DNA of 26,678 nt from a virus: the IMG/VR virus record IMGVR_UViG_3300049846_000539, positions 1 through 26,678 of that record; one strand, given 5' to 3'. This document shows, in pieces, positions 4,908 to 18,850 of this stretch (positions are counted from its first letter, which is position 1; each line of letters starts with the position of its first letter). The translations under genes were made by a program, and so were the position numbers. The notes under the pieces were generated by a model. It saw only the letters and a program-made list of their open reading frames with translations, made no database searches and had not been told where the DNA came from.

Positions 4908-6247
4908 TGGCAGGATGGCTCTCGCGCATCCTCGGCGCCCGCCGCTCCACTGAGCGGTATGACCCGCAGGACAGCCGCATTCCGTATCAGGGGCGCACGC
5001 TCGCCGGGGTCTATGTGGACCCGGATCGCGCGCTTACGAATAGCGTGGTTTGGGCGTGCGTCGGCTATCTGTCGTCCACCGTGGCGCAGCTTCCATGGCA
5101 GGTGAAGCGGGAACTGGCGAATGGCGGGTCGGAGGTTGTGCGCCGGCATCCGGTGGACACCGTCCTTGCTTGGCGGCCGAATCCTGAGTGGTCGCCGTTC
5201 CAGTTCCGCGAGACGATGGTCGGATGGGCGCTGCTGCGCGGGAATGGCTACGCGGAGATCGTGCGCGACGCTGCCGGCCGGGTGTCGGAGTTGTGGCCGA
5301 TCCATCCCGACAAGGTCGAGGTGCGCCGCGACACGGCGACGGATCGCCTGTTCTACGAGGTGCAGACCGGCGCGGGGAAGATCGACCTCGACCCGATGGA
5401 CGTGTTCCATCTGCGCGGGTTCGGGGATGGGCCGGTCGGGCTGAACGTGGCCGAATATGCCGCGCAGTCCATCGGCTGGGCGCAGGCCGCGGAACTGTTT
5501 GGTGCGTCGTTCTTCGGCAACGGCATGAATACGGGCGGCTTCATTGAGGTGAAGTCGGGTCTGAGCGCGGACGGCAAGACTCGGTTGCGCGCGGAACTGG
5601 ATAGGAAGCATCGCGGGCCGCGCAACGCGAATACGTGGATGATTCTCGACGCTGAGATGACTGCGAAGAAGCTGGCAGCGACGCCGGACGAAGCGCAGTT
5701 CGTGGCGACGATGCAGCATCAGGTCGAGACGATCTGCCGTTGGTTCCGCGTGCCGCCGCATAAGGTGATGCACCTCCTGCGCGGGACATTCTCAAACATC
5801 GAGCATCAGTCTATCGAGGTCGTGGTGGACAGCGTGACGCCGTGGGTAACGCGGCTGGAGCAGGAAGCTGACTATAAGCTGTTCGGCAGCAACCGTCAGG
5901 GGCTCTTCACCGACATCGACCTGACCGGCTTGCTGCGCGGCGATGCAAGCGCGCGCGGCACCTATTACCAGATGATGCGGAACGTCGGCGCGATCAACGC
6001 GAACGAAATCCGCGCCCGTGAAGGCATGAACCCTATCGGGGACGACGGCGACAAGTACGTCATGCAGGGCCAATACACGACGCTCGATATGCTCGGGCAA
6101 GAGCCCGCCCCGGCCCCCGCTGCGCCTGCCGCACCCGAGCCCGCGCATCAGGAAGACACGCCATCGCAGCAGGCGGCGGCCTGGCGGATCAGCACGATGG
6201 CGGCGGCGCTCGACGTGGCCGACCCGGAGACGGTTGATGCCGTTTGA
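4907..6247 (+). CDS. Portal protein, HK97 family
   Basis: A 446-residue portal protein that would form the dodecameric ring at the capsid vertex through which DNA enters and leaves. Supporting segments are the N-terminal [11 protein letters not shown]-like region ([20 protein letters not shown]), [59 protein letters not shown] and [10 protein letters not shown], all in the order of HK97-type portals. The ATG at 4907 is chosen over an in-frame GTG at 4901 because it sits in a TGATG overlap with the terminase stop and has an upstream GAGG. The C-terminal 60 residues are Pro/Ala-rich and probably disordered. The gene overlaps the next by 11 bases. Position between terminase and head protease is canonical. 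Confidence 0.95.
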
Positions 6248-6980
6248 CCAGCCGATACAGCCGCAGAACGAGCGCCGCGCGCCGCTGCTGGAGGCGGTGG
6301 CGCAGGCGACTGAGCGCAGCATGCGGACGCTTCTGCGGCTGGTGTCGCGGGTGTCGGCGCTTGAGGCGCGCGCGCCCGTTGCTGGCCCGCAGGGCGAGCG
6401 TGGTGACGTGGGACCGCAGGGCTTGCAGGGCGAAATGGGGCCGCAGGGTCTCATGGGGCCAAAGGGAGACCGTGGTGAGCCCGGCATTCCGGGCGAGCGC
6501 GGCCCGCAGGGCGACATCGGGCCGCGTGGTCTTCAAGGCGTCCAGGGCGAGCGCGGGGAGCCCGGCAAGGACGGGCGCGACGGGCGCGAAGGCCGCGATG
6601 GCGTGTCGATTGTTGCCGCGGATGTGGACGAAGCCGGCGCGCTGCTGCTGCGCTACTCGGACGGCCGCGAACATCGGGCGGGGCTAGTCATTGGTCCACC
6701 CGGCCCGCGTGGCGCGCAGGGCGATCAGGGGCCGCAGGGTGAGCGCGGCGAAAAGGGCGACCTCGGGCCGCGTGGTGCCAAAGGCGACACCGGCCCAAAG
6801 GGCGACAAGGGTGACCGCGGCGAGATGGGGCTTCCGGGCGCTGACGGCCGCGACGCCGAGCTGGTGCTGATGAGCGAGCCCGCGCCGGCCGACCTGACCG
6901 CCAAGGACTTGCCGCGCCTGCATTGGCGCGAGTTGCAGATCGGCGCAGCGACGTTTCGTGTGCTGACGCTGGAGGACTGA
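6237..6980 (+). CDS. Collagen-like protein between portal and head protease
   Basis: A 247-residue protein not recognised as a named phage family. Residues 1-49 hold a predicted amphipathic helix ([20 protein letters not shown]) that could act as a trimerising coiled coil. Residues 50-121 are 24 uninterrupted Gly-X-Y triplets. Residues 122-152 form a non-collagen interruption ([20 protein letters not shown]) and residues 153-206 are 18 more triplets. A 41-residue C-terminal piece follows. Collagen-like repeats in phages usually lie in tail fibres, where they form trimeric rods; here the gene sits inside the portal-protease head block. ATG 6237 overlaps the portal stop by 11 bases and is preferred over TTG 6234. 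A head fibre or portal/neck appendage is inferred. The repeats are certain, the role is not. Confidence 0.85.
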
Positions 6981-6984
6981 CCCC

Positions 6985-7647
6985 ATGTCCATCGTGATGC
7001 GCGCCGCGAAGGGCGACGGCGAAGTCCTGATCTATGACGGCATCGGCGCCGATTTCTGGGGCGACGGCGTGACCGCCAAGGGCTTCGCGAAGGAACTGTC
7101 GGACCTCGGCGCGGTCAACAGCCTGACCATCCGCATCAACAGCGGCGGCGGCGACGTGTGGGACGGCATCGCCATTCACGAAGCCATCGCGCGCCACCCG
7201 GCGGCGAAGAAGACGGTCGTGGTGGACGGCCTTGCTGCGTCCATCGCGAGTGTCATCGCCATGGCGGGCGACGAAATCCGCATCGCGCCTGGCGGCTTCT
7301 TCATGGTTCACAATGCATGGTCGATGAGCGTCGGCGATGCCGCGACCATGCGGAAGACGGCGGAACTTCTTGATAGCGTGTCGGGCCAGATGGCTAACAT
7401 CTACGCCGCGCGCACCGGCAAGCCGGCCGCAAAAATCAAGGAATGGATGAACGCCGAGACGTGGTTTGACGCAGAGACGGCGGTCAGCAACGGCTTCGCA
7501 GACGCCAAATCCCAAGACGTGGTGAAGGTCGCCGCGTCGCTCGACTATTCCCGTTTTCGCAACGTGCCGCGCCAGCTTCGCGGCGCTGTTCCGACGCCAC
7601 GCCTCGACGCGCTGGCAGCAAAGATCGCGGCAAAACGCCGCACCTAA
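6985..7647 (+). CDS. Head maturation protease, ClpP-like (S14 family)
   Basis: A 220-residue ClpP-type serine protease that in HK97-like phages cleaves the scaffold (delta) domain of the capsid protein during prohead maturation. The family signature is visible: INSGGGDVWDGIAIHEAI, the nucleophile context VDGLAASIASVIAMAGDE with S86 as likely catalytic serine, GGFFMVHNAWS with H109 as catalytic histidine, and a C-terminal WFDAETAVSNGFAD that supplies the usual acidic residue. Length matches phage ClpP-like proteases. A strong ribosome binding site GGAGGA lies 8 bases before the ATG, within the end of the collagen-like gene. It directly precedes the major capsid gene, as expected. Confidence 0.95.
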   Translation: MSIVMRAAKGDGEVLIYDGIGADFWGDGVTAKGFAKELSDLGAVNSLTIRINSGGGDVWDGIAIHEAIARHPAAKKTVVVDGLAASIASVIAMAGDEIRIAPGGFFMVHNAWSMSVGDAATMRKTAELLDSVSGQMANIYAARTGKPAAKIKEWMNAETWFDAETAVSNGFADAKSQDVVKVAASLDYSRFRNVPRQLRGAVPTPRLDALAAKIAAKRRT

Positions 7648-7648
7648 A

Positions 7649-7664
7649 TTCCGCACCCGCGGAA
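7649..7664 (+). other. Perfect hairpin just after the protease stop
   Basis: TTCCGC (7649-7654) and GCGGAA (7659-7664) form a 6 bp stem with an ACCC loop, starting one base after the protease stop codon. There is no T tract, so it is not a classic intrinsic terminator. It could protect or mark the 3' end of the upstream message, ahead of the capsid leader element. Confidence 0.4.
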
Positions 7665-7667
7665 GGC

Positions 7668-7736
7668 CCCTATCAGCCCTTGGGCAAGGCTTTGGACCGT
7701 CGAGAGACGGCCCGTCCCTGAGATGGAGCCTACCAC
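7668..7736 (+). promoter_or_regulatory. Structured leader element, copy A (before major capsid gene)
   Basis: This 69-base leader aligns end to end with the leader before the tail tube gene (17528-17596). Its core is a hairpin: CCGTC (7697-7701), GAGA tetraloop (7702-7705, GNRA type) and GACGG (7706-7710), extended across a conserved A-C mismatch (7696/7711) by GG/CC pairs (7694-7695 with 7712-7713). The conserved stretch GTCCC-N2-AGATGGAGCC follows; its GGAG (7725-7728) is the ribosome binding site, 8 bases from ATG. Upstream, CCCTTGGGCAAGGCT is identical in the tube leader. Stem changes relative to the other copies are compensated. Mechanism unknown. Confidence 0.75.
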
Positions 7737-9047
7737 ATGCTCGAAGAGCTGAGGGGGCGGCTTGCCGAGCTGCAGGCCGCCAACGAGTCCTTTGTCGCCA
7801 CCCTCCGCGACGAGAACCGCGAGCCGACCGAGGAGGAGGCTAGCGAGATCGACGCCCGCCTCGCTGAGATCGACCGCATCACGGCGAACGTGACGCGCAT
7901 CGAGCGCATCAGCGCCGCTGCGGAGCCGCAGCCCCGCAAGGTGACGCAGGCGGCCCCCGCCGCTGCGGCGCGTCCTTCGGTGCCGGCTCAGGCCAAGCCG
8001 AACGCGCGCACCTTCGGCTTCAAGCACATGGGCGAGTTTGCCAGTGCGGTGAAGGCGGCGGTCGGCGGCGATGCCGGCGCGACGGGGCGCCTCCAGGCGG
8101 CCATGAACGAGGGCACCGGCTCCGAAGGCGGGTTCCTCGTGCCTCCCCAGTATGCGACGAGCATTTGGGAGAAGGTCATGGGCGACGACAGCCTGCTTCC
8201 GCGCTGCGATGTCCAGACCATCGCCGGCAACTCGCTGGTCGTGCCGAAGGACGAGGTGACCCCCTGGGGTTCCAGCGGCCTTCAGGTCTATTGGGAGGGC
8301 GAGGCCAGCCAGGCGACGGCTTCCACGCCTTCGCTGGAGGCGACGCAGATCAGGCTCAACAAGCTGATGGGCGTCGTTCGCGTCTCCGACGAGGTGCTGG
8401 ACGATGCGTCGGGCCTCGATGTCTATCTGCGCAGCCGCGCGCCTCGGGTGATCGCCCAGCGCGTGAACACCGCCATCGTGACCGGCACCGGGGCGGGTCG
8501 TCCGCTCGGCCTGCTGAACAGCGATTCGCGCGTGACGGTGGCGAAGGAGACCTCGCAGCCGGCGGACACGGTCATGCACCGCAACATCATCAAGATGTGG
8601 TCGCGGCTGTATGCACCCTGCCGTGCAAACGCGGTGTGGCTCATTAACCAGGACGTGGAGCCGCAGCTTCATCAGATGTCGTTCCGCGATGTCGGCGCCT
8701 ATCCGTCCACTGCGACTGTCGCGCCCTCGCCGGCCTATATGCCGATGGGCGGCGTTTCCGGTTCGCCGTTTGCGACCCTGCTGGGTCGCCCGGTGATCCC
8801 GGTGCAGGCGTGCAAGACTCTTGGTGATGAGGGCGATATCATCCTCACCGACCTGAGCCAGTACCTCGTTGCCGTGAAGGCTGGCGGCGTGCAGACGGAC
8901 GTGTCGATGCATCTCTACTTCGACTACGGCCAGCAGGCATACCGCTTCACCTTCCGCATGGCCGGACAGCCATGGTGGAACACCACCATCAGCCCGGAGA
9001 ACGGCACAAACACGCTGTCGTCCGTTGTGACCCTGGCGGCTCGCTGA
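7737..9047 (+). CDS. Major capsid protein, HK97 fold, with N-terminal delta scaffold domain
   Basis: A 436-residue major capsid protein. Residues 1-60 are a charged coiled coil (LEELRGRLAELQAANESF and IDARLAEIDRITANVTRI) like the HK97 delta domain, followed by an Ala/Pro-rich linker (about 65-90) where the preceding protease probably cuts. The mature domain begins near FGFKHMGEFASAVKAAVGGD and has the family hallmarks NEGTGSEGGFLVPPQYATSI, VPKDEVTPWGSSGLQVYWEG, RLNKLMGVVRVSDEVLDDAS, VNTAIVTGTGAGRPLGLLNS and the C-terminal FRMAGQPWWNTTISPENG. The ATG has GGAG 8 bases upstream inside the structured leader. A GC-rich hairpin follows the stop. The most abundant virion protein, so special control of its expression is plausible. 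Confidence 0.95.
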   Translation: MLEELRGRLAELQAANESFVATLRDENREPTEEEASEIDARLAEIDRITANVTRIERISAAAEPQPRKVTQAAPAAAARPSVPAQAKPNARTFGFKHMGEFASAVKAAVGGDAGATGRLQAAMNEGTGSEGGFLVPPQYATSIWEKVMGDDSLLPRCDVQTIAGNSLVVPKDEVTPWGSSGLQVYWEGEASQATASTPSLEATQIRLNKLMGVVRVSDEVLDDASGLDVYLRSRAPRVIAQRVNTAIVTGTGAGRPLGLLNSDSRVTVAKETSQPADTVMHRNIIKMWSRLYAPCRANAVWLINQDVEPQLHQMSFRDVGAYPSTATVAPSPAYMPMGGVSGSPFATLLGRPVIPVQACKTLGDEGDIILTDLSQYLVAVKAGGVQTDVSMHLYFDYGQQAYRFTFRMAGQPWWNTTISPENGTNTLSSVVTLAAR

Positions 9048-9054
9048 TCCTAGT

Positions 9055-9076
9055 GGGGCCGCCTGAGCGCGGCCCC
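9055..9076 (+). terminator. GC-rich hairpin after the capsid gene; possible attenuator or partial terminator
   Basis: GGGGCCGC (9055-9062) pairs perfectly with GCGGCCCC (9069-9076) over a 6-base loop, eight bases after the capsid stop. The downstream bases GTCCTTCCC are only weakly T-rich, so termination would be partial; it may instead stabilise the 3' end of the capsid message. A comparable hairpin follows the tail tube gene. Confidence 0.5.
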
Positions 9077-9090
9077 GTCCTTCCCATCCC

Positions 9091-9132
9091 GCAGCGCCGC
9101 GAGGCGCCGCATCCCAGAGACGGAGTCCTGAA
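9091..9132 (+). promoter_or_regulatory. Structured leader element, copy C (before probable decoration gene)
   Basis: Third copy of the leader hairpin. GCGCC (9094-9098), GCGA tetraloop (9099-9102, GNRA type) and GGCGC (9103-9107), extended across the same A-C mismatch (9093/9108) by GC/GC pairs (9091-9092 with 9109-9110). It is followed by ATCCC-N2-AGACGGAGTC, matching the other copies, with GGAG at 9122-9125 and a 7-base gap to ATG. It lacks the upstream CCCTTGGGCAAGGCT segment of copies A and B. The stem is identical to copy B while the loop base differs but stays GNRA. Confidence 0.75.
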
Positions 9133-9645
9133 ATGGACAACACCCTTGCGCTTGAGCGCATGCAGATTGCGGCTGCCATCGCGCCGCAGGCTCTCACCAC
9201 TGCCCGCACTGGTTATGTCGCGTCCTTCAAGAACTATCGCCGTATTTTGGTGGTGTTCTTCAAGGGCATCGGCACGGCCGGCGACGACCCGACCATCACG
9301 CTTCTCCAGGGGACAGACATCGCCTTCGGCACGTCCAAGGCGATCAACTTCACCAAGGTCTGGACGAAGATGGACCTCACGAAGCTGTCCGATGTGGGGC
9401 AGTGGACGGAGACCACGCAGTCGGCGGCCAACACCTACACCGACGCCACCAGCGCCGAGCAAATGGCGATCTGGGCCATCGAGGTGAAGGCCGAGGACCT
9501 CGACGTGGACAACGGCTACGACTGCATCCGCGCCAGCATCAGCGATGTCGGCACGAACGCGCAGTACGGCTGCGTCTTCTACATCGGCCTCGACCCGCTG
9601 TACCCGGCGTCGCCCGCGAACATGCGCAGCATGATCGCTGACTGA
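9133..9645 (+). CDS. Probable head decoration/stabilisation protein
   Basis: A 170-residue protein with no catalytic motifs. Its pattern (LTTARTGYVASFKNYRRILV, then GDDPTITLLQGTDIAFGTSK, then EDLDVDNGYDCIRASISDVG and FYIGLDPLYPASPAN) resembles a small beta-rich phage protein type often found just after the major capsid gene. I do not know a characterised member. Position directly after the capsid gene, and the same structured leader as the capsid and tail tube genes, suggest a high-copy virion protein, so a capsid cement or decoration role is inferred. The stop overlaps the next ATG (TGATG). It could alternatively be an uncharacterised virion assembly factor. Confidence 0.6.
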   Translation: MDNTLALERMQIAAAIAPQALTTARTGYVASFKNYRRILVVFFKGIGTAGDDPTITLLQGTDIAFGTSKAINFTKVWTKMDLTKLSDVGQWTETTQSAANTYTDATSAEQMAIWAIEVKAEDLDVDNGYDCIRASISDVGTNAQYGCVFYIGLDPLYPASPANMRSMIAD

Positions 9646-10199
9646 TGAGGACAAAGGGTGGCGCGTGGCTGGACATCCAGCCGGCACGGTCGGGCGCTTT
9701 GGCCCGCGCCACCCAAGCACAACCGCCTTCGGCCTTCGGGCCGCGGGCAACTTTCATGCCTGGCGCGCGGGTTTACGCAGGCTCGCGCTTCGGCGCTGAT
9801 CTTTTCGTCGGTGACGGCGCCTCTATCAGCGAGGGCTGCCGGTTCGGTGACCGCTGCGTCGTCGGCCGAAACTCCACGGTCGGTCCGGGTTGCCGGTTCG
9901 GCAGTGGGGTCCGCATCATGGACCTGGCGCACATCGTCGGCGGTACCGAGATTGGTGATGATTGCTTCATCGCCATGGGCGTGATGACCTGCAACGACCG
10001 CCGGCCGCTACCCTACATCTACGACGAGGCGAGGAATCAGCCGATCCGCATCGGGTCGCGGGTGATGATAGGGGCAGGGGCGATCCTCTGCCCTGGCGTG
10101 TCTATCGGTGACGATGCGCGCATCTGCGCCGGGGCGCTGGTGACGCAGGATGTCGGGTCGGGCGTGACCATCAAGGCAGTGCGGGGCTGGGAATCGTGA
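9645..10199 (+). CDS. Left-handed beta-helix (hexapeptide repeat) acyltransferase, sugar N- or O-acetyltransferase-like
   Basis: A 184-residue protein with hexapeptide repeats from about residue 38: GARVYAGSRFGADLFVGDGA, SEGCRFGDRCVVGRN, VGPGCRFGSGVRI, IVGGTEIGDDCFIAMGV, then IRIGSRVMIGAGAILCPGVS and IGDDARICAGALVTQDV. This is the left-handed parallel beta-helix of acyl-CoA-dependent sugar acetyltransferases. The interrupted loop MTCNDRRPLPYIYD resembles the FTND loop of WbpD/WlbB-like amino-sugar N-acetyltransferases of lipopolysaccharide pathways. The first 35 residues are not part of the repeat. It begins an overlapping three-gene cassette with two glycosyltransferase-like proteins. Donor, acceptor and target (virion protein or host surface glycan) cannot be told from sequence. 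Confidence 0.82.
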   Translation: MRTKGGAWLDIQPARSGALARATQAQPPSAFGPRATFMPGARVYAGSRFGADLFVGDGASISEGCRFGDRCVVGRNSTVGPGCRFGSGVRIMDLAHIVGGTEIGDDCFIAMGVMTCNDRRPLPYIYDEARNQPIRIGSRVMIGAGAILCPGVSIGDDARICAGALVTQDVGSGVTIKAVRGWES

Positions 10200-10861
10200 T
10201 CGTCGCCAGCTTCTTTGCGCCGCGCCCTGAGCATCCGCGCTGGCGGGATTACCTGCCGGGACTGCATCTGCTTCAGGCGTCCTGCGACCGGCTTGGGCTG
10301 CGGCATGTCGTGATCGGGGATGAGCCGGTCGAAGGCTTTGACGTGCTGTCGGTGCCTGACCTCCCGCGGCTGCTGATGCCGGCTTTCGTCACCGGCCAGC
10401 GGCACGCCATTGAGACCCTGGACGACGACCTGTTGCTTGTCGGCGCAGATTGCGTGATCGCCAAGCGGCCCGATTATCCGCTTGAGATCGCGGACATCGC
10501 GGTGACCCTCGGCGACTTCTGGGACTGCCAACTCAACACGGGCGCTATCTGGATTGCACGGGCCGCGCGGGGCATTGCCGCCGAGATGTGGCGAGCAGCC
10601 GAACACGGCATCAAGGATGTCTGGGGCGACGACCAGATTGCCATCTGTCGGCAGTTTGAACCGCTGCCAGACCTCCGCACGCTGCCGACCATCCAGAAGA
10701 GGGGAAGCGTGCGGGTCGCCTATCTCCCGGTGGACCCGTGGAACCTGGCGCCAGTCGCGCCGGCTGACGATTGCTCGCATGCCGTGGTGCTGCACTTCCG
10801 GGGCAACCGGAAGGAATGGGCGGCCGAATGGTGCGAGAGGTGGATTGACCTCAGGCCGTGA
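10196..10861 (+). CDS. GT-A-like glycosyltransferase (nucleotide-sugar transferase fold)
   Basis: A 221-residue protein beginning at GTG in a GTGA overlap with the acyltransferase stop. The N-terminus MIVASFFAPRPEHPRWRDYL, the segment DDDLLLVGADCVIAKRPDYP (position of a degenerate DxD-type metal motif), CQLNTGAIWIARAA, VWGDDQIAICRQFEPLPDL and the late VVLHFRGNRKEW follow the order seen in GT-A glycosyltransferases of the GT8/nucleotide-diphospho-sugar class. The first Asp of a DxD motif appears replaced (GAD). No signal peptide or membrane segment is seen, so action is cytoplasmic. It is translationally coupled to its neighbours and lies in the late operon. Family-level call only; sugar and acceptor unknown. 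Confidence 0.65.
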   Translation: MIVASFFAPRPEHPRWRDYLPGLHLLQASCDRLGLRHVVIGDEPVEGFDVLSVPDLPRLLMPAFVTGQRHAIETLDDDLLLVGADCVIAKRPDYPLEIADIAVTLGDFWDCQLNTGAIWIARAARGIAAEMWRAAEHGIKDVWGDDQIAICRQFEPLPDLRTLPTIQKRGSVRVAYLPVDPWNLAPVAPADDCSHAVVLHFRGNRKEWAAEWCERWIDLRP

Positions 10862-11526
10862 GGCAGATTGGGCCTAGGCAGTGGGTGGATGATGGCACGC
10901 CCTGGCCGGAACCCTGGCAGTGGGGGCGGGACTACGAAGGCGAGACGGTTGTCATCCTCGGCAATGGCCCGACACTTGCAGATTTTTCGCCGGCCCAAGT
11001 GTCGGGCTATCGGCTGATCGCCATCAACTCGGCCTGTGAATGGGTCGGGCCGTTCGCTGCCACTGGCGACATGCTCTTTTTCCACGACAACTCGTGGAAT
11101 GAAAACCACCCCGGACACGCGCAGGCATGGCCCGGCTGGATCGTCACCACCAATCGCTACGCAGCCGCCCGTTTGCAGCCCCGTGCGAAGCGCCTGGACG
11201 CCACCGCGCTGACTGAGGCTGTCAGGGTGCATCCCGACGCTTTGCACGCCTCCAGCGGCCACACAGCGGCGGCCCTGGCGGCTGCGATGGGTGCCCGCCG
11301 CGTGGTGCTGCTGGGGTTCGATGGCGGGCATCGCGCCGGTCGCGCGCAGTGGCACAATTTTTACCGCGAAGGCGATGAGACGGTTTACGCCGAGCGGTTC
11401 CTGCCAGGCTGGGATGATCTGATTCCTGGCCTCGCGCGGTACGGCTGCGAGATCGTCAACGCCACGCCGGGCAGCTCGATCAAAGCCGCCCCTTTCCTTG
11501 ACCTTGCGTCGGCGCTGGCCGGCTGA
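10858..11526 (+). CDS. Rossmann-type protein resembling GT42/DUF115-like glycosyltransferases
   Basis: A 222-residue protein starting at GTG in a GTGA overlap. The region EGETVVILGNGPTLADFSPA-like (ETVVILGNGPTLADFSPAQV) followed by LIAINSACEWV resembles the nucleotide-binding start of CstI-type GT42 sialyltransferases and the MptE-like/DUF115 family, and also a protein in some phages annotated with the odd name norphogenetic protein. Later segments are HASSGHTAAALAAAMGARRV and VLLGFDGGHRAGRAQW, with a final YGCEIVNATPGSSIKAAPF. These fit a single Rossmann-like domain. It closes the three-gene sugar cassette. A glycosyltransferase role is likely but the substrate is unknown. Confidence 0.6.
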   Translation: MRQIGPRQWVDDGTPWPEPWQWGRDYEGETVVILGNGPTLADFSPAQVSGYRLIAINSACEWVGPFAATGDMLFFHDNSWNENHPGHAQAWPGWIVTTNRYAAARLQPRAKRLDATALTEAVRVHPDALHASSGHTAAALAAAMGARRVVLLGFDGGHRAGRAQWHNFYREGDETVYAERFLPGWDDLIPGLARYGCEIVNATPGSSIKAAPFLDLASALAG

Positions 11527-11537
11527 TCGGAGGCCCT

Positions 11538-11810
11538 ATGGTCCGCATCCGCTTTCTTGAGCGCACGGTGTACGACACCAACGGCCCCGGCCTCGGGCCG
11601 GTCTATGCGGCCGGCGAAGTGGTCGAGGTGACGCCGGACGTGGCCGAGCGGTGGTTCCGCCGTGGAAAGGCCGAAGCAGTGGCGGACGCGCCCAAGCCTG
11701 CCGCAGCGCCGAAGCCTGCGCCCGCTCCGGTTGCCGCGCCTGTCGCTGCGCCCGCGGCAGAGAAGATCGCTCCTGTCGCGTCGCGCGCCGACCGGCGCCC
11801 CTCCGTTTAA
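11538..11810 (+). CDS. Small phage protein of unknown function with Pro/Ala-rich tail
   Basis: A 90-residue protein with GGAGG 4 bases before its ATG. Residues 1-50 form a compact domain (VRIRFLERTVYDTNGPGLGP, AAGEVVEVTPDVAERWFRRG), a pattern seen in small proteins near capsid genes of other phages in which an aliphatic start is followed by a GEV...A.RW..RG motif. Residues 51-90 are a Pro/Ala/Lys-rich, probably disordered tail. It may be a minor head or connector component, but I cannot name the family. Its start is well supported; its function is not. Confidence 0.6.
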   Translation: MVRIRFLERTVYDTNGPGLGPVYAAGEVVEVTPDVAERWFRRGKAEAVADAPKPAAAPKPAPAPVAAPVAAPAAEKIAPVASRADRRPSV

Positions 11811-11831
11811 CGATCCCGAAGGTATCCCCAC

Positions 11832-12368
11832 ATGCACGACGCTGCAAATGCGGCTGACGCTATCGGCGTCGGCACGGTGATGAATCCTGCGCTGGCCGAG
11901 GCGTTCATCGCGCCTGCGATCACCTACGACGTGGAATGCGTCGGCCCGGACGGCGAAGTGAAGTGGACCGAACGCGTTCACAACGTCGTCTGCACCGCCG
12001 GCAAGACCGACATCGTTGACAAGTACCTCAAGGGCTCGTCCTACACCGCTGCATGGTACTGCATCCTCGCGGGCGCCGGCACAAAGGCCGCGGGCGACAC
12101 CCTCGCGTCGCATGCCGGTTGGACCGAAAGCACGCCCTATGCTGGCAACCGCCCGTCGATTACTTGGGGCACCACGTCGAGCGGCAGCAACACCAGCACC
12201 GCAGTGTCCATCAGCATCAACGCGACCGCGACCGTGGCCGGCGCTGGCATCTGCACGGTGAATAGCGGCACGTCGGGCACGCTCTACAGCGTGAGCGATT
12301 TCTCGGCGTCGCGTTCCGTTGCGTCGGGCGATACGCTCAACGTCACGTTTACAATTTCTGTTAGCTAA
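11832..12368 (+). CDS. Unrecognised beta-rich phage protein, probably virion-associated
   Basis: A 178-residue protein preceded by GAAGG 9 bases upstream of ATG. It contains NVVCTAGKTDIVDKYLKGSS, AWYCILAGAGTKAAGDTLAS, HAGWTESTPYAGNRPSITWG and a Ser/Thr-rich C-terminal half (SISINATATVAGAGICTVNS, VASGDTLNVTFTISVS). The pattern looks like a beta-sandwich structural protein and resembles uncharacterised proteins of alphaproteobacterial and Burkholderia-type phages. No catalytic motif is seen. It is followed by a TAATG overlap with the next gene, suggesting coupled expression. Virion role is inferred from context. Confidence 0.6.
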   Translation: MHDAANAADAIGVGTVMNPALAEAFIAPAITYDVECVGPDGEVKWTERVHNVVCTAGKTDIVDKYLKGSSYTAAWYCILAGAGTKAAGDTLASHAGWTESTPYAGNRPSITWGTTSSGSNTSTAVSISINATATVAGAGICTVNSGTSGTLYSVSDFSASRSVASGDTLNVTFTISVS

Positions 12369-13216
12369 TGCTAAAGCCCTTCGCCCAGGCGTTCGCGTAT
12401 AGCGCGAGCAACCAGCCGAGCACTCCATCCGCTAGTTCGTTCGGCACTGGAGTGACGGGCGGGAACAGCGCAAACGGGACGCAGGTTGCTTGGGGTGGCG
12501 GCGCGCTGGGCTTTGAGGGGCAACTTCTTCTTGTCAGATGGTGCGCAGGTGCCTCGGCAAACGCCGACACCCGCAGCCTGGTTGACATATTGATAGACCC
12601 GGCCGGCGGAACGTCTTGGTCTTCAACACCGCTCGTAAGCGGCATTTTGGCAGGCTTTGGTAACGCGACTGTCCTAACGCGCGAAATGTGGCTGCCGATC
12701 CGCATCCCCAGCGGGGCAAACCTCGGTTTGCAGGCGCGCAGCCTGACGACCGGCCGAACGCATCGAGTCATCATGCACGTTTTTGGCGGATACAAAGGCC
12801 CAGGGACTTGGCGCTGTGGGTCGCGTGTCGTCAGCATCGGCGTTGTGGAAGCCAACTACAACGGCACGTTGGTAACGCCTGGCGCATCAGGCTCGTGGGG
12901 GTCTTGGACCAGCATTCCTGCAGCAACGACGACAGACACCAATCTTTGGGCATTTAACCTCGTTTATGGTGGGGTAAATGGCAGCTCGATGAGCGGCCAC
13001 GCCTTGTATTTTCAAATGGGCGCGGGGTCACAGGTTCTTGGCGGGGATACGCCGCATTGCTTCGTCAGCAACAACACAAGTGAAGCCGTCACGAACTACG
13101 AAAGTTTCCCGGTTTGGCAAGACGTCCCTAGCGGAACGCAGATGCAGGTGCGGGCCAAGAACAGCACGACATCGCCGCAGGACAGTGGCGTTGCACTTTA
13201 CGCGGTGACGGGGTGA
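12368..13216 (+). CDS. Unrecognised Ser/Gly/Thr-rich beta protein, possible virion surface or fibre protein
   Basis: A 282-residue protein starting at ATG within TAATG. Composition is rich in Ser, Gly, Thr and aromatic residues (AQAFAYSASNQPSTPSASSF, FGGYKGPGTWRCGSRVVSIG, SGSWGSWTSIPAATTTDTNL), typical of beta-rich extracellular or virion surface proteins. No transmembrane segment or enzymatic motif is apparent. GC falls in this gene: hand counts give 60% at 12601-12660, against 75% at 3001-3060, and rare codons such as ATA and TTA occur, which hints at a different origin. It precedes two small unrecognised genes. A head fibre or receptor-contact role is a guess from composition and position. 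Confidence 0.55.
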   Translation: MLKPFAQAFAYSASNQPSTPSASSFGTGVTGGNSANGTQVAWGGGALGFEGQLLLVRWCAGASANADTRSLVDILIDPAGGTSWSSTPLVSGILAGFGNATVLTREMWLPIRIPSGANLGLQARSLTTGRTHRVIMHVFGGYKGPGTWRCGSRVVSIGVVEANYNGTLVTPGASGSWGSWTSIPAATTTDTNLWAFNLVYGGVNGSSMSGHALYFQMGAGSQVLGGDTPHCFVSNNTSEAVTNYESFPVWQDVPSGTQMQVRAKNSTTSPQDSGVALYAVTG

Positions 13217-13219
13217 CGC

Positions 13220-13558
13220 ATGGCGATTGCTGAATATGCCTCGGGCACGTTTTCGCCTGGTGCCACGTCCACAAGCTGGTCGGGCTTGAGCGGCGCGAAC
13301 ACCGACGACCGCATCATCCAGATTTTCTTTGACTGCAATGCGCTGGCGGCTGGCGACGTGGTAGAGCTGCGAGTGACTGAAAAGGCGTTGTCGTCCGGGA
13401 CGGCGCGTGTCTGTTGGGTGGCGACTGCTGCAAATGCGCTATCGGAGCCGATGATCGTCTCGCCGTCGATGATTGTGTTGCACGGCTGGACGGTGGAAGC
13501 ACGGCAGACGACCGGCACGGTGCGATCATTCCCCTGGTCAGTGCGGGCGATTTCCTGA
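13220..13558 (+). CDS. Unrecognised small phage protein
   Basis: A 112-residue protein starting three bases after the previous stop. It reads MAIAEYASGTFSPGATSTSW, then DDRIIQIFFDCNALAAGDVV, then SPSMIVLHGWTVEARQTTGT and ends FPWSVRAIS. The last part, a hydrophobic strand plus HGW and a final FPWS, resembles small proteins located among head/tail genes of other phages, with no known function. No clear Shine-Dalgarno precedes the ATG, so translation may depend on coupling. GC is low for the window. The stop overlaps the next start (TGATG). Confidence 0.55.
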   Translation: MAIAEYASGTFSPGATSTSWSGLSGANTDDRIIQIFFDCNALAAGDVVELRVTEKALSSGTARVCWVATAANALSEPMIVSPSMIVLHGWTVEARQTTGTVRSFPWSVRAIS

Positions 13559-13791
13559 TGCCGGCGACGACGTATCGCGTTTTTCAGCTTCCTAACTTCT
13601 CGGGCGGCTGGGATCAGGTTGGCCCACCGCTCCAGGCGGGCACTGATCGCCTTTATGGCGTTTTGGCGCATACGTGGAATATCACGGTAAAGCCGAACGA
13701 CATTAGCGTATCGCAAGGCTGGGTGGTGGTGAGGATGACTGATCGCCTACCCCTGGACCTTGAAACGCATCTCGGACTAACGCCGAGCTAA
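13558..13791 (+). CDS. Unrecognised 77-residue protein
   Basis: A short gene beginning at ATG 13558 in a TGATG overlap with the previous stop; the reading frame is open further upstream but only over the previous gene. The product starts MPATTYRVFQLPNFSGGWDQ and ends with DRLPLDLETHLGLTPS, with a central VLAHTWNITVKPNDISVSQG. No domain recognised. The stop-start overlap, codon use and same strand support it as a real gene. It may form a unit with the preceding small gene. Confidence 0.5.
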   Translation: MPATTYRVFQLPNFSGGWDQVGPPLQAGTDRLYGVLAHTWNITVKPNDISVSQGWVVVRMTDRLPLDLETHLGLTPS

Positions 13792-13795
13792 CGCC

Positions 13796-15451
13796 ATGAT
13801 GCCCTATGGCATCCTCGTACCTGGCGGCGGCCAACAGCAGGCCGTCACCGGGACAACGTACAACGACACCCTTACCGATACGGCGACCGGCGGCGAAACC
13901 GCTGCTGGCGCATCTACAGTTGCCCCGGCACTTACCGACACAGTATCCGGCGCCGACACTGCTGCGGCATCTGCGACTTTTGAAGGCGGCACGCTTTCCG
14001 AAACCGTCACCGGGGCCGACAGCGTCTCGGGCGGAATTGTCTTCTCCGATACGCTATCCGACAGCGCGGGCGCAAACGATAGCGTTTTAGTCGCGGGCAC
14101 GTTTGATGCCGGGACGCTTTCTGACGCTATCACTGGCGCCGATAGCGCGGACGCGCTGGTTACCGTCGAAGGCGCGCTATCCGACAGCGCCACGCCGGCC
14201 GATACGGCAGCGGTCGCGGTCACTTTTAACGCGGCGCTTTCCGATACTGCCTCGGGCGCGGATACCGCGGCAGGTGGCAGCCTTTATCCCGACACGCTTT
14301 CCGAGACTGTCACGGGCGCAGACAGCGTCCTAGTTGCGGGCACCTTCAACGGCTCGATTGCTGACACAGTCGCGGGTGCCGACGCGCTGGCGGTTAGCGC
14401 GACCTTCGTCGGCGCGCTGGCGGACAGCGGCACTGCTGCCGATGCGGTCTCGGACGCACAGATTCTCGTCGGCGCCGCGAGTGACGCAGTCACGGGCGCG
14501 GACGCGGTGTCGGTCGTCGCCACGATTGCGGGTGCGCTGTCCGATGCTGCCACTGGCGCGGATACGGCATCCGCGGCGGCGACGTTCAACCCGAGCCTAA
14601 GCGACAGCGCGTCCGGGTCTGACACAGCGTCCAGCGCGCACACTGCGGGCGCCAGCGTTTCTGAGACCGTCGCGGGTGCGGACAGCGTCGCTGCCGCGGC
14701 TACCTTCAACGCATCTGTTGCAGATGACGTAACTGCGGCGGACGTATCTCGCGCGGACCAGAACGACGCGATTACGGAAGATGTCGCGGCAGCGGACTCT
14801 GTCGCTGCGGCCGCAACGCTGGTCCCGTCCGCGTCTGACGCGGCAACGGGGGCCGATACTGCCGTCGCCGCGGTTACGGTTGCTGGCGCGCTTTCTGACA
14901 CCGCCACTAGCGACGATGCGATTGCCGCCGCTGCTACCTTCGTCGGGTCGGTTAGCGAAAGCGGCACGGGTTCGGATACCAGCAGCGGCGCGAACAGCAT
15001 CGCTCGCACGGTGTTCGAAGATGTCGCGGCGGCTGACAGCCTTGCGGAAGATGCGACGTTTGCGGCTGCGCTCTCCGATACCGGCACGGGCGCTGAGACT
15101 GCCGCTGTCACGGCCACATTTGAAGCATCGTCCACCGACGCAGTAACCGCATCAGACGCAGTTGACGACTTCCTGATCGGCTCGACGCTGAGTGATGCAG
15201 CTTCAGCGACCGACGCGGTCTCTGTGGTGCTGATCGCGGTCGTCTCGGTCAACGACGATGTCACCGCCGACGACGATTCCTGCTTCCTGCCGGTGTCGCG
15301 TCCGCGCACCACGCCAGGCCAAGCGGCAGCACGCAACCCGGCGGCTCAGGCAACCGGACGGGCTTCGGCAGGAACGGCAACGGCGCGCGGAACCGCAGGA
15401 CAGGCGACAGCACGAACGACTGCCGGGCGTGCTGATCCGAGATGTTGCTAG
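13796..15451 (+). CDS. 551-residue protein of about 24 tandem 20-residue Asp/Ala/Thr-rich repeats
   Basis: The protein starts at ATG 13796 (a second ATG follows directly) with a short unique N-terminus MMPYGILVPGGGQQQAVTG. Residues 25 to about 495 are tandem repeats of 20 residues, for example ALSDTASGADTAAGGSLYPD and TLSETVTGADSVLVAGTFNG: consensus small/Leu/Ser-(D/E)-x-(V/A)-(T/S)-G-A-D-(T/S)-(V/A), then four variable residues, then A-T-F-x-G. Each unit has two fixed acidic positions six residues apart. The last 50 residues are different: basic, Arg/Ala/Thr/Gly-rich (TAGQATARTTAGRADPRCC) with no acid until the end. No family recognised. The regular repeat suggests an elongated solenoid such as a beta-helix, perhaps a virion fibre. 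Codon use differs between copies, so the array is old rather than recently expanded. Confidence 0.8.
   Translation: MMPYGILVPGGGQQQAVTGTTYNDTLTDTATGGETAAGASTVAPALTDTVSGADTAAASATFEGGTLSETVTGADSVSGGIVFSDTLSDSAGANDSVLVAGTFDAGTLSDAITGADSADALVTVEGALSDSATPADTAAVAVTFNAALSDTASGADTAAGGSLYPDTLSETVTGADSVLVAGTFNGSIADTVAGADALAVSATFVGALADSGTAADAVSDAQILVGAASDAVTGADAVSVVATIAGALSDAATGADTASAAATFNPSLSDSASGSDTASSAHTAGASVSETVAGADSVAAAATFNASVADDVTAADVSRADQNDAITEDVAAADSVAAAATLVPSASDAATGADTAVAAVTVAGALSDTATSDDAIAAAATFVGSVSESGTGSDTSSGANSIARTVFEDVAAADSLAEDATFAAALSDTGTGAETAAVTATFEASSTDAVTASDAVDDFLIGSTLSDAASATDAVSVVLIAVVSVNDDVTADDDSCFLPVSRPRTTPGQAAARNPAAQATGRASAGTATARGTAGQATARTTAGRADPRCC
13868..15280 (+). repeat. Degenerate 60-base in-frame tandem repeat array
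   Basis: About 23-24 copies of a 60-base unit encode the 20-residue repeats of the enclosing gene. Unit length is nearly constant (19-21 codons). Copies are diverged at the DNA level but keep codons for S-(D/E) and G-A-D. Motifs such as GCGCTNTCCGA and GGCGCNGA recur. Confidence 0.8.
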
Positions 15452-15460
15452 GGGCATCCC

Positions 15461-16066
15461 ATGCTGACCATCGTGACCCCGGCAGATTCCGAACACCTGA
15501 CGACGCTGGCCCGCGCGAAGACCGAGCTGGGCATTACGGTGTCCACCTATGACAACCAAATCCTCGACCATATTTCCGAGGCGTCCAGCCTCATTGCTGA
15601 ATACTGCGGACGGGACGGTTTTGGGCGTGCATCCTACGAGCAAACCGAGCGCCTGACGTGTGCCGTGCCGCACATCATCCTAGACCGCGACATCAATGTG
15701 GAGATCACGGCGGTAACGGTGGACGGGACCGCGCTTGATGCTGCCGACTATGAGGTGGATGGCTCGCTTCTCTACAAGCTTGAGGATGACGAGCGCATCG
15801 CGTGGGAAGCCTATAAGACGGTGATCGAGTACGACGCCGGCTATGATCTTCTCGACAGCATGCCTTTTGCCATTGAGCGGGCATGCCTGGACATTGTGGT
15901 AAATCTCTACCGCGGCGCCGGCCGGGATGGGGCGGTGCGGATGGACAGCGTCGAGGGCGTCGGGTCGGTGGCGTATTTCGACGTTCGGTCGAATGCGGGC
16001 GTTATGCCCCTGTCGGCTGATCGCATTCGCGCGCTTGACCGCTACAAGCTTTGGGCGATCCGGTGA
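15461..16066 (+). CDS. Head-tail connector (adaptor) protein, HK97 gp6 / phiE125 gp8-like
   Basis: A 201-residue protein. The N-terminal half, LARAKTELGITVSTYDNQIL then DHISEASSLIAEYCGRDGFG, is the helical pattern of HK97 gp6-like connectors, and the overall length and the later SMPFAIERACLDIVVNLYRG fit the longer phiE125 gp8-type family. These proteins form the ring attached below the portal to which the stopper and tail join. The location between head and tail genes is right. ATG 15461 lies 9 bases after the repeat-protein stop with a GGGG-containing upstream. The stop overlaps the next GTG start (GTGA). Confidence 0.8.
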   Translation: MLTIVTPADSEHLTTLARAKTELGITVSTYDNQILDHISEASSLIAEYCGRDGFGRASYEQTERLTCAVPHIILDRDINVEITAVTVDGTALDAADYEVDGSLLYKLEDDERIAWEAYKTVIEYDAGYDLLDSMPFAIERACLDIVVNLYRGAGRDGAVRMDSVEGVGSVAYFDVRSNAGVMPLSADRIRALDRYKLWAIR

Positions 16067-16392
16067 CACCCGCCGCCGCAATCGCCATGCTGGACCGCCA
16101 GATCGCGCAGCACGGCGAGACCGTGACACTGACGCGCATCGGCACCCCGGACGTGACGCTCGATGTGCAGGCGTTCGTTCGGCGTGCGGTTGTCGATCCG
16201 CTGGTGCCAGGCGGCGACCCCGCGCAGTATGGGACCGTCGTTGTCCTGAGCCCGACCGGCCTGACGACCTTTGTGCCGCCGCTGCGCCTGGACCAGATCA
16301 CAGTCGGCGGCCGGGACGCGCTGATCGAGGAAGTCGAGACGGTGCGGATGGCAGACGAGGTCGTCCGCTACAACCTGCGGATCAAGGGCTGA
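16063..16392 (+). CDS. Probable head-tail stopper/closure protein
   Basis: A 109-residue protein. GTG 16063 in a GTGA overlap is preferred to the upstream in-frame TTG at 16051. The product begins MTPAAAIAMLDRQIAQHGET, followed by TLTRIG and the beta-rich PLRLDQITVGGRDALIEEVE and VRYNLRIKG. Size, beta-barrel-like composition and order (after the connector, before the neck/tail completion genes) match SPP1 gp16 or HK97 gp7-type stoppers, which seal DNA in the capsid. Sequence evidence for the family is weak; position carries most of the weight. It ends in TGATG with the next gene. Confidence 0.6.
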   Translation: MTPAAAIAMLDRQIAQHGETVTLTRIGTPDVTLDVQAFVRRAVVDPLVPGGDPAQYGTVVVLSPTGLTTFVPPLRLDQITVGGRDALIEEVETVRMADEVVRYNLRIKG

Positions 16393-17084
16393 TGTTTACT
16401 CGCCCCGCTCTCGCAAGCTTTACGCGCGAAATCACGGTGGCATCACGCGGGCTGTCGGGCGAGGCGGTCAGCCGCGCGATTGCGACAAAGGCCCGCCAGC
16501 ACATTGCGCAGGTCGAGCGCGACGCGACGGCCAGGTCCGGCGGTATTGAGCCCGGCAAGGTCACCATCGTTGACGGTCGCAAGACCGACGCGCTGGAAAC
16601 GGTGAAGCCGTCCGGCGCCATCATTATCCAGTGGGACTACATGACCGAGGCAGCTAACCGGGTCGTGCAGTTCCTCACGAGAAACGGCCCCGAGCGTAGC
16701 GGCGACTGGAAGAAGGCAATCACGATCTACGTGGACGACACGCCGCACCCGCGCCGGCAGCCGATCCCGGTCGGGGCGCAAGAGGTGGTGGTCGCGGTGC
16801 CGATTATCTACGCGCGCAAGCTGGAGGTTGGCCGCGACAAGGAAGGCGGCCCCTTTACGGTCGAGGTGCCGCGGCAGTTCATCACGGAACACGCACTTGC
16901 GGCACTGAAGCCGGCGCTGCGAAAGCTAGGCTTTGACGCCCGCGCTGCGTGGGTGCAGCACGCAACCGGCAAGGGCATTCCGCTCGCTCGCCGCAGCAGC
17001 GACAGCCGCCGCGCGCGGGCCGAGCGCAGCGACGCAATGCGCTTCCCTGGCATCGCCATACGTCGCAAGAGCGGCCCGCTGTGA
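16392..17084 (+). CDS. Probable neck/tail-completion protein (HK97 gp10-like position)
   Basis: A 230-residue protein starting at ATG in a TGATG overlap. It reads MFTRPALASFTREITVASRG, then VSRAIATKARQHIAQVERDA, GAIIIQWDYMTEAANRVVQF, VGAQEVVVAVPIIYARKLEV and a basic C-terminus RRSSDSRRARAERSDAMRF. The slot between stopper and tail terminator is that of HK97 gp10-type or minor tail proteins, but it is longer than the usual 130-150 residues, the extra being mainly the Arg-rich C-terminus. I do not recognise the domain with certainty. It overlaps the terminator gene (GTGA). Confidence 0.5.
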   Translation: MFTRPALASFTREITVASRGLSGEAVSRAIATKARQHIAQVERDATARSGGIEPGKVTIVDGRKTDALETVKPSGAIIIQWDYMTEAANRVVQFLTRNGPERSGDWKKAITIYVDDTPHPRRQPIPVGAQEVVVAVPIIYARKLEVGRDKEGGPFTVEVPRQFITEHALAALKPALRKLGFDARAAWVQHATGKGIPLARRSSDSRRARAERSDAMRFPGIAIRRKSGPL

Positions 17085-17512
17085 GCGGCCCCTACGCCGA
17101 CGCGAACACAGCCATTCGCGCGCTGTGGACTTCCGACTTCTCGACCAGCGTTTCCGGCGCTGTCGTGCGCTGGGCCGAGAACGCAAACGAGACCATCCCG
17201 GCGGCTGACTATTGGCTGCACAACGAGGTCGAGTTCACCTCTGAGGACATCGTCGCGTTTGGCGGCGGGCGCGCGCTGAACGAGCGCGAAATCTTCGGCC
17301 GCGTGTGCGTTCTGGTCATGTCGCGCCGAGGCCGTGGGGAATCGTCCGGCTTGACGCTGCTGGACGACGCGCTCGCCACCTTCCGCAGCAAGCGGAGCGG
17401 CGGCCTGTCCTTCGTTGGCGCGTCCGCCATGCCTGACCCTGCGCCGTCTGCTGACGGGCTGTGGTGGGTCCGTACTGGCATCGCTTCTTTCACGTATCGC
17501 TTCCAGGGCTAA
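17081..17512 (+). CDS. Tail terminator protein (DUF4128-like)
   Basis: A 143-residue protein from GTG 17081 in a GTGA overlap; a longer upstream extension of the frame would run through the previous gene. It starts MSGPYADANTAIRALWTSDF, has WLHNEVEFTSEDIVAFGGGR and LTLLDDALATFRSKR, and ends WVRTGIASFTYRFQG. This pattern, a small alpha-beta protein ending in an F.YRFQG strand, fits DUF4128-like tail terminators that cap the tail tube and join it to the neck. It lies immediately before the tail tube gene, as expected. Confidence 0.7.
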   Translation: MSGPYADANTAIRALWTSDFSTSVSGAVVRWAENANETIPAADYWLHNEVEFTSEDIVAFGGGRALNEREIFGRVCVLVMSRRGRGESSGLTLLDDALATFRSKRSGGLSFVGASAMPDPAPSADGLWWVRTGIASFTYRFQG

Positions 17513-17527
17513 CGCCCCGGACGACTG

Positions 17528-17596
17528 CCCCATCGGCCCTTGGGCAAGGCTGTTGCAGCGCCGTGAGGCGCCGCGTCCCATAGATGGAGCCCTCCC
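17528..17596 (+). promoter_or_regulatory. Structured leader element, copy B (before tail tube gene)
   Basis: A 69-base leader aligning with 7668-7736. The shared 5' part is CCC(T/C)ATC(A/G)GCCCTTGGGCAAGGCT. The hairpin is GCGCC (17558-17562), GTGA tetraloop (17563-17566, GNRA type) and GGCGC (17567-17571), extended across the A-C mismatch 17557/17572 by GC/GC pairs (17555-17556 with 17573-17574). GTCCC-N2-AGATGGAGCC follows, with GGAG at 17586-17589 and 7 bases to ATG. AAGGCT (17546-17551) can pair upstream or, through GGCT, with AGCC at the ribosome binding site. Confidence 0.75.
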
Positions 17597-18850
17597 ATGG
17601 CCCTGGCCGAAGGCAGCGCAATTCGGTTTGCGTACAAGTTCTATGCGTCCGGTACGATGGACAACAACGACGAGGCGGACACCGGCACCGATCCCGGCGC
17701 GTCCGGCGCGCAGACGCTTCGCCGCGTTTCGGCATCGCTGAACCTCCGCAAGAACGTCGTCGCCTCGCAGGAAATCCTATCCTCGCGCCAGGTCCGCAGC
17801 GCGCGGCACACGACCCGCCGCGTCGAAGGCAACATTGCCGGCGAGCTGTCGCCCGGCACCTACGCCGAATTCATCGAAGCCGCCATGCGCGGCACGGGCG
17901 CGGCGCTGGTAGCGGTGTCGATCACCGAATCCGACTGCACCAGCGTCACCGCGGACAATGCCACCAGCAAGTTCACTTTCGCCAGCGGCAACCCGGTGAC
18001 GCTCGGCTTACGGATCGGCGGCATCATCCAGTTTGCCAGCCTTTCGGTCGCCGCGAATAACAGCGTGCGCTACGTCATCACCGCATTCGGCGGCACGAAC
18101 AACCGCGAGGTCACCGTCTATCCGGCGCCGACCGATATGACGGCCGACACCACCTTCACCCTGACCACGCCGGGCCAGTCGGTCACGGTGCCGTCCTCGT
18201 CGCACGTCTCGCGCAAGGTGGCGCTGGAGCGGTACGACACCGACCTCGACCGTGCGCGCCTCTATACCGAATGCCGAGTGACCGGCTTCTCTGTCGCGGT
18301 GCCGGCGGACGGTATCGCCACCATCACGACCAACTTCCTCGGCCGCAGCCGGACGACGCTGTCCGGTGGCTCGGCGCCATACTTCAGCAGCCCGACCGCG
18401 ATGACGACGACGGAGGTCGCCAACTCGCTGAACGGCGTACTGATGATCGACGGTACGGCGCAGGGCGTGGTCACCGGGATCAACATCAACTTCGCCATGG
18501 AAGCGGACGCCCCGGCGGTTGTCGGGCAAGCGTTCGTGCCAGACGTGCTGCTTGGCACTTCTACCGTCACGGGCGACTTCACGGCGCTGGTTGACGATGC
18601 CGACGCGGTCAACACCGCGTTTGAGAATGAGAGCGAGATTTCTATTCTCGTCTATCTCACCTCGGGCAGCAGCACGGCCGACGCGATCAGCATCTACCTG
18701 CCGCGCGTGAAGGTCACGGGGGCCGAGGAAAACGCGCAGGGCGGAACGTCGCAGATCATCAGCGGGCAGTTCCAGGCGCTTGAATACACCGGCTCCGGCG
18801 CCGGCATTGCGACTTCGACGGTGCGCTACACCGACACCGCCTGGTCGTAA
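17597..18850 (+). CDS. Major tail tube protein
   Basis: A 417-residue protein matching the pattern of the phage tail tube protein 2 family (PF18906-like). It begins MALAEGSAIRFAYKFYASGT, with an early SASLNLRKNVVASQEILSSR, RRVEGNIAGELSPGTYAEFI (the conserved G.I.GELSPGTY element), and a second beta-sandwich half (GFSVAVPADGIATITTNFLG, YLPRVKVTGAEENAQGGTS, GQFQALEYTG). Rings of this protein stack to form the hollow tail. It is preceded by the structured leader shared with the capsid gene and followed by two GC-rich hairpins, consistent with a separately controlled, highly expressed cistron. Confidence 0.88.
   Translation: MALAEGSAIRFAYKFYASGTMDNNDEADTGTDPGASGAQTLRRVSASLNLRKNVVASQEILSSRQVRSARHTTRRVEGNIAGELSPGTYAEFIEAAMRGTGAALVAVSITESDCTSVTADNATSKFTFASGNPVTLGLRIGGIIQFASLSVAANNSVRYVITAFGGTNNREVTVYPAPTDMTADTTFTLTTPGQSVTVPSSSHVSRKVALERYDTDLDRARLYTECRVTGFSVAVPADGIATITTNFLGRSRTTLSGGSAPYFSSPTAMTTTEVANSLNGVLMIDGTAQGVVTGININFAMEADAPAVVGQAFVPDVLLGTSTVTGDFTALVDDADAVNTAFENESEISILVYLTSGSSTADAISIYLPRVKVTGAEENAQGGTSQIISGQFQALEYTGSGAGIATSTVRYTDTAWS

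Follow-up and report, generated by a model that had tools for sequence, protein, structure and literature searches.

Conserved structured RNAs of unknown function, such as Mu-gpT-DE, GP20-a/b, and Proteo-phage-1, are situated near phage structural genes, and the leader of T7 gene 10 is a translational enhancer of the major capsid gene. For viruses and phages, a catalogue by Fremin and colleagues reportedly lists candidate structured RNAs by the thousands. In phage T4, a pseudoknot lies ∼67 nucleotides (nt) upstream of the start codon of gene 32 and is possibly the sole viral case of its kind in translational autoregulation (PMC3014915). Here, a stretch of 26,678 bases from the IMG/VR virus record IMGVR_UViG_3300049846_000539 (referred to as the window) was analyzed, which contains three copies (A, B, and C) of a leader element. 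From 5′ to 3′, the element is composed of a putative pseudoknot (an upstream GCCN facing the loop CUU-N-GGC-AA of hairpin P1), a second hairpin (P2), and the segment UCCCnnnGAUGGAG, with the start codon 6–10 nt further on. As judged from the comparison of copies in many phages, its stems are conserved, its modules are separable, its position at the start codon is fixed, and the genes behind it belong to the class of virion genes.

The likeness to Mu-gpT-DE, GP20-a/b, and Proteo-phage-1 consists in a structured RNA being placed near phage structural genes. With the T7 gene 10 leader, the element has in common that it precedes a major capsid gene of a phage, but both sequence and structure are different, and the T7 leader is not shared across unrelated phages or between head and tail genes. 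As to the class of mechanism, the T4 gene 32 pseudoknot comes closest: both are small pseudoknots in a phage messenger RNA (mRNA) leader (that of copy A spans ∼71–46 nt upstream), and for the new element an H-type pseudoknot, formed by the 5′ GCCN and the loop NGGC ahead of the ribosome binding site, is predicted with moderate confidence. Yet, two defining features fail. In T4, an A+U-rich unstructured stretch (UUAA repeats) follows the pseudoknot and overlaps the ribosome binding site, whereas here the G+C-rich P2 and UCCCnnnGAUGGAG take that place, and the gene 32 product is a single-strand DNA-binding self-repressor, whereas here several unrelated virion genes follow. An intrinsic terminator is not apparent either; P1 and P2 are followed by the Shine-Dalgarno (SD) segment and not by a U run, and a terminator scan of the + strand found none at copy A or copy B. 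Nothing ligand-related, as would be expected of a riboswitch, was found in the gene context. What characterizes the element is covarying stems, agreement with the strand of the gene, and a fixed distance to it, as in a structured cis-acting leader RNA. No Rfam 15 family reached the gathering score in the window and 15 further loci, and a permissive Rfam 15 search with six loci gave no match overlapping the element, which is in line with the preliminary description of the window, where no described RNA family had been recognized; a known family was rejected as far as Rfam 15 reaches. No such motif is described in the passages of Weinberg 2010 that were consulted. The element appears to be previously uncatalogued; it may be listed, without a name, in the catalogue of viral structured RNAs.

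Exact matches to TCCCNNAGAYGGAGYC occur three times in the window (at 7715, 9112, and 17576), all on the + strand and each ahead of a gene; any further match has three mismatches, which is chance level. These are the leaders that the preliminary description had reported, and its account of P2 (2 base pairs [bp], an A·C mismatch, 5 bp, and the loops GAGA, GCGA, and GUGA), of three compensated pair changes between copy A and copies B/C, and of 22–23 nt between hairpin and ATG proved accurate. What it had overlooked was the pseudoknot module, the modularity, and a conserved GCC at the SD sequence: copies A and C contain pseudoknot, P2, and tail, copy B only P2 and tail, and the overlooked half of A and C (hairpin P1 with the loop CUUGGGCAA and the upstream GCCC) is the more conserved one. 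Three copies within one window are thin evidence by themselves, and it is the relatives elsewhere that settle whether the element is real. A pattern for the P1 loop and the tail retrieved 16 viral contigs, a looser pattern at least 119 viral matches, and patterns demanding a non-G loop base or P2 plus tail at least 120 each; all counts of viral contigs are lower bounds, the copies analyzed are those among the matches listed, and fetching by sequence pattern favors close copies. Selection on RNA structure, which had been proposed from the three copies, is borne out by hundreds of further copies with compensated stems. Relatives were also inspected for the reverse, that is, for a lack of matches before capsid or tube genes or for broken stems, and neither was encountered. 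Chance or a local repeat is ruled out by the relatives together with the covariation.

In its family form, P2 consists of 5 bp, an A·C mismatch, 2 bp, and a GNRA-like loop. Over 109 distinct rows, 97.3% of the cells of 10 pairs were paired, both sides varied in nine of the 10, and the covariation score was 0.653, as compared with 0.167 after shuffling and no more than 0.057 after sliding of the structure, values that lean toward the model because the alignment was fitted to it. When 119 deduplicated copies were parsed separately, levels 1–3 of P1 were paired in 100% (three pairs being partly demanded by the search rule) and P2 pairs were strongly exchanged, level 6 of P2 being the A·C mismatch in 45 of 113. 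P1 was read as a 4-bp stem with a 9-nt loop, and the reading as a bulged-C hairpin rejected, because copies such as L104 (CUCAC-AUUGGGCAA-GUGAG) pair without a break. Conservation of the structure of both stems can be regarded as established by this covariation. The modules are separable, since both P2-only and pseudoknot-only copies occur.

The end of GGAG was located 6–10 nt ahead of the start codon in 525 of 527 site calls (a redundant set), and the CCC of the tail and the SD core GA-N-GGAG were near invariant, which is in part fixed by the search patterns. The 140 clusters of downstream proteins matched mostly PHROGs of major head proteins (phrog_10, 617, 2263, 15928, 29, 283, 1005, 264, 2353, and 6020) and major tail proteins (1407, 158, 13196, 584, 807, and 290), and P2-only leaders additionally precede genes for scaffolds (3927, 9013), sheath (165), and tube (185). 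Thus, the genes downstream encode almost exclusively virion proteins (capsids, tail or tube, scaffold, and sheath), as the preliminary description had expected of abundant ones, and their common factor appears to be virion copy number rather than gene homology. Two or more copies were present on 58 of 247 contig-strands, often 3–4 kilobases (kb) apart, and a few of these calls correspond to spurious small open reading frames (ORFs). Among individual contigs, P2-plus-tail leaders precede the scaffold genes of L374, L400, and L413; on two contigs of contractile-tail phages, P2 leaders lie upstream of adjoining sheath and tube genes (L368, 3131–5413) and a P2-plus-tail leader lies upstream of a sheath gene (L432, 1062–3173). 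The 6.5-kb contig L206 carries a near-identical pair of elements (383–460 and 5406–5487) ∼5 kb apart and near both of its ends, possibly reflecting terminal redundancy.

The pseudoknot is less firmly backed than the stems, with support that we consider moderate. Its three GCC:GGC pairs were fixed by the search pattern and, hence, carry no covariation information. For the fourth pair, GCCC was present upstream in 112 of the 120 G-loop copies and in 8 of the 69 other-loop copies among the matches listed, a contrast that kinship among the carriers may inflate. Over the same listed copies, that pair was Watson–Crick in 136 of 189, compared with a mean of 85 and a maximum of 102 upon shuffling. By these counts, the fourth position is clearly complementary in the case of G:C and partly so in that of A:U; loops with C or U show no enforced complementarity. 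An independent set of 77 contigs was fetched by capsid similarity and not by pattern; in 13 of them, the loop hairpin lay in the 330 nt ahead of the capsid gene, and all 13 (three of which are near-identical) had the matching GCCC. The pseudoknot starts at a median of 20 nt past the upstream stop codon, and the 40 nt before it fold unusually well (z < −1.5) in ∼40% of copies, compared with 17% of coding controls. The upstream GCCC being the arm of a terminator hairpin was rejected as a rule, as many copies have a separate hairpin ahead of it, and pairing of the tail CCC with the P1 loop was rejected because CCC stays unchanged when the loop base varies.

Most carriers are metagenome fragments. 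In bacterial genomes, the loose pattern matched 24 stretches, 14 of which were judged real by structure; 11 of the 14 are in named Proteobacteria/Alphaproteobacteria and three in metagenome bins labelled Myxococcales, Verrucomicrobiota, and Chloroflexia. Prophages of Pararhodobacter marinus and Novosphingobium FSW06-99 are carriers as well. With the covariance model (E ≤ 1e-4, strict filters), matches were obtained in 5 of 385 Alphaproteobacteria, including the centre genome, which was a known carrier beforehand, and in none of 360 Gammaproteobacteria under the same settings, a search run without a positive control. When the element was compared with cultured phages by BLAST, convincing matches were limited to Pseudanabaena phages Pan4 and Pan3; a match to a single-stranded RNA phage (H48) was rejected as chance, the sequence lacking the tail. 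Pan4 (ON968455.1, L363) has an unannotated pseudoknot copy at 6937–7016 (36.9 bits) before its major tail protein gene, and Pan3 (ON968454.1, L433) an unannotated P2-plus-tail copy at 4449–4480 before its capsid gene. The carriers appear to be mostly phages of Alphaproteobacteria, and restriction to that class is likely rather than demonstrated because the reported host of Pan3 and Pan4 is a cyanobacterium (PMC9837993). It may be that phages of Alphaproteobacteria are not the only carriers; otherwise, the reported hosts deserve a check. Ahead of the capsid genes of Bradyrhizobium phage ppBdUSDA122-1 and Caulobacter phage W2, no clear element was seen. In alphaproteobacterial genomes, P2-plus-tail leaders were seen ahead of very small ORFs of ∼40–60 amino acids (L357, 1495–1574, − strand; L358, 1501–1591).

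Translation initiation ranks first among the candidate functions because of the fixed place at the start codon, the inclusion of the SD sequence, and the modularity, and the leader probably sets the translation strength of virion genes. We propose, at about even chances, a modular 5′ leader for the highest-copy virion genes. A compact pseudoknot would fold in the late polycistronic mRNA just past the previous stop codon and, together with the GNRA-like hairpin P2 that comes next, would keep UCCCnnnGAUGGAG unpaired and its spacing to the start codon constant; this would allow strong ribosome loading that does not depend on the upstream gene, and the capsid, scaffold, sheath, and tube proteins would exceed the products of neighboring genes. 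A partner, if there is one, would most likely be supplied by the host (the ribosome, a ribosome-associated factor, or an RNA-decay factor) because several unrelated capsid families and unrelated phages share the element. Masking of the SD sequence by the 3′ arm of P1, as seen in folds of copy A, was rejected as a rule because that arm varies while the tail is constant; with regard to a possible 16S-tail pairing, the exact 16S 3′ end was found in only one of eight genomes searched. Several observations weigh against a leader that enhances translation. A decrease in translation or a role as a protein operator would be equally compatible with a conserved leader, and conservation of the loop bases CUU and AA beyond pairing needs suggests that something binds them. 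The GCC at the SD sequence of pseudoknot copies hints at regulation and not at plain enhancement. Moreover, pairing at the fourth position is incomplete for non-G loops (24 of 69 vs 21 expected; p 0.24, or 0.07 deduplicated), and minimum-energy folding, which is blind to pseudoknots, favors other pairings in copies A and C, with weak z-scores.

That the near invariance of the loop beyond pairing needs was also seen in copies fetched without fixing those bases, and that head and tail genes of one phage are preceded by the same element, would suit an RNA-binding protein of phage or host that recognizes both hairpin P2 and the CUUNGGCAA loop and by which the translation of capsid and tail genes is jointly repressed or timed; T4 gene 32 offers a known bound pseudoknot operator (PMC3014915). 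Such an operator is nevertheless somewhat unlikely, as the carriers come from several unrelated capsid families, all of which would need one phage-encoded binder, and as the existence of P2-only and pseudoknot-only copies leaves no binding site common to all. The well-folding 40 nt ahead of the pseudoknot, some of which resemble terminator hairpins, could instead mark a ribonuclease cut between an additional hairpin, P0, and the pseudoknot that leaves the message for capsid or tube protected at its 5′ end. Alphaproteobacteria do use segmental mRNA stability, as in the puf operon. P0, however, is variable and absent from most copies, and the element keeps its distance to the start codon rather than to P0, its tail including the SD sequence; processing or stabilization as its main role is therefore unlikely. 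A transcription element, either a late promoter or an RNA acting on RNA polymerase in the manner of HK022 put, would account for repeated copies before late genes, some of them directly after terminator-like hairpins, but a promoter scan detected no sigma-70-like promoter near copies A or B, compensatory stem changes point to RNA, and the fixed distance to the start codon points to translation, so that we consider this explanation extremely unlikely.

The loop has a second potential partner. A GCC overlaps or abuts the SD sequence (GGA-GCC or GGAG-GCC) in 103 of 108 pseudoknot copies but in 60 of 620 ordinary SD sequences, and among the matches of the P2-plus-tail scan, where those bases were unconstrained, it was found in 10 of 11 pseudoknot and 4 of 25 P2-only copies (Fisher p 4e-5), both comparisons being among the matches listed. 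Within contigs holding both types, the contrast is mostly kept, including the window (A and C with GCC, B without), the exceptions being L078, L143, L138, and L236. A loop with two GCC complements could possibly act as an on/off switch, in which NGGC pairs either with the 5′ GCCN, leaving the SD sequence free, or with the SD GCC, masking it. Competition between the two is treated as a hypothesis because the pattern was spotted late, by looking at the data. The identity of the base following the 3′ GCC shows no more than a weak association with that of the loop base (p 0.048 after deduplication), the divergent pseudoknot copies of L004, L023, L025, and L043 lack the 3′ GCC, some P2-only copies possess it, and the carriers of the two types may differ in ancestry; a bistable switch as the explanation of the element is very doubtful. 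The more far-reaching notion of a class of two-state RNA switches in many unrelated phages, in which the invariant loop would pick the 5′ GCC (on) or the SD GCC (off) and time capsid, scaffold, and tail synthesis jointly upon a cue from a host factor or signal, strikes us as distinctly improbable.

In the window, all features of the three leaders are on the + strand. Upstream of copy A, the 6-bp hairpin P0 (UUCCGC/GCGGAA, 7649–7664) lies between the stop codon of the protease gene (7647) and the predicted pseudoknot region (GCCC plus P1, 7666–7691). Its GCCC (7666–7669) would pair with 7682–7685, as suggested by the GCCC/GGGC association across copies. P1 (AGCC-(CUUGGGCAA)-GGCU, 7675–7691, loop 7679–7687) and P2 (GG A CCGUC GAGA GACGG C CC, 7694–7713) are assigned from sequence and covariation, and the tail UCCCUGAGAUGGAGCC (7715–7730), assigned from motif matches and tail conservation, contains the SD sequence GGAG with GCC overlapping its last G. 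Behind copy A, profile matches identify the gene for a major capsid protein of the HK97 fold (7737–9047; PF05065, 1e-43; phrog_10). Copy B (9091–9127) belongs to the P2-only class by its sequence: P2 (9091–9110) is followed by the tail AUCCCAGAGACGGAGUC, with neither a pseudoknot module nor GCC at the SD sequence. In copy C, the predicted pseudoknot region (GCCC plus P1) spans 17527–17552, with GCCC at 17527–17530 and, according to the same association, its partner at 17542–17545; P1 (CGGCC-(CUUGGGCAA)-GGCUG, 17534–17552) and P2 (GC A GCGCC GUGA GGCGC C GC, 17555–17574), again based on covariation, precede the tail UCCCAUAGAUGGAGCC with SD and GCC (17576–17591, by motif matches and tail conservation). 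The gene behind copy C encodes a tail tube protein by profile matches (17597–18850; PF18906, 1e-25). Thus, the labels capsid and tail tube of the preliminary description stood, whereas "decoration" for the 170-residue protein behind copy B (9133–9645) could not be verified, as the profile search matched an unknown PHROG only. That gene has few relatives; a homologue in L435 (49% identity) has a similar P2-type leader, and the remaining ones, in L436–L438, have none.

Further ORFs were noted in the window. Directly 3′ of the gene behind copy B, a hexapeptide-repeat (left-handed β-helix) protein is encoded (9645–10199), and between the head and tail genes lies an ORF of 551 amino acids made of diverged repeats of ∼20 residues with a 60-nt period (13796–15451). 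A collagen-like ORF with GXX repeats (6234–6980) is located between the portal and protease genes, an unusual site for a fibre-like protein. Two adjoining ORFs (2–1360 and 1350–2585) share stretches of 71–75% DNA identity, which looks like a tandem duplication, and the second one matches ParB-like nuclease and DNA methyltransferase families.

For each particle, tailed phages need capsid and tube proteins in hundreds of copies and portals in small number, often with a single long late transcript as the source. If several unrelated capsid families, head and tail genes of the same phage, and siphovirus-, podovirus-, and sheath-type gene orders use one leader, this would solve the problem of stoichiometry in a general and transferable way, and the wide occurrence of a pseudoknot at the start codons of phage genes would be remarkable in view of the T4 review (PMC3014915). 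As a sequence handle, the element flags the genes for capsid, scaffold, tube, and sheath in phages that have not been cultured. It also points to Alphaproteobacteria as their likely hosts, in which it could serve as a compact leader for expression.

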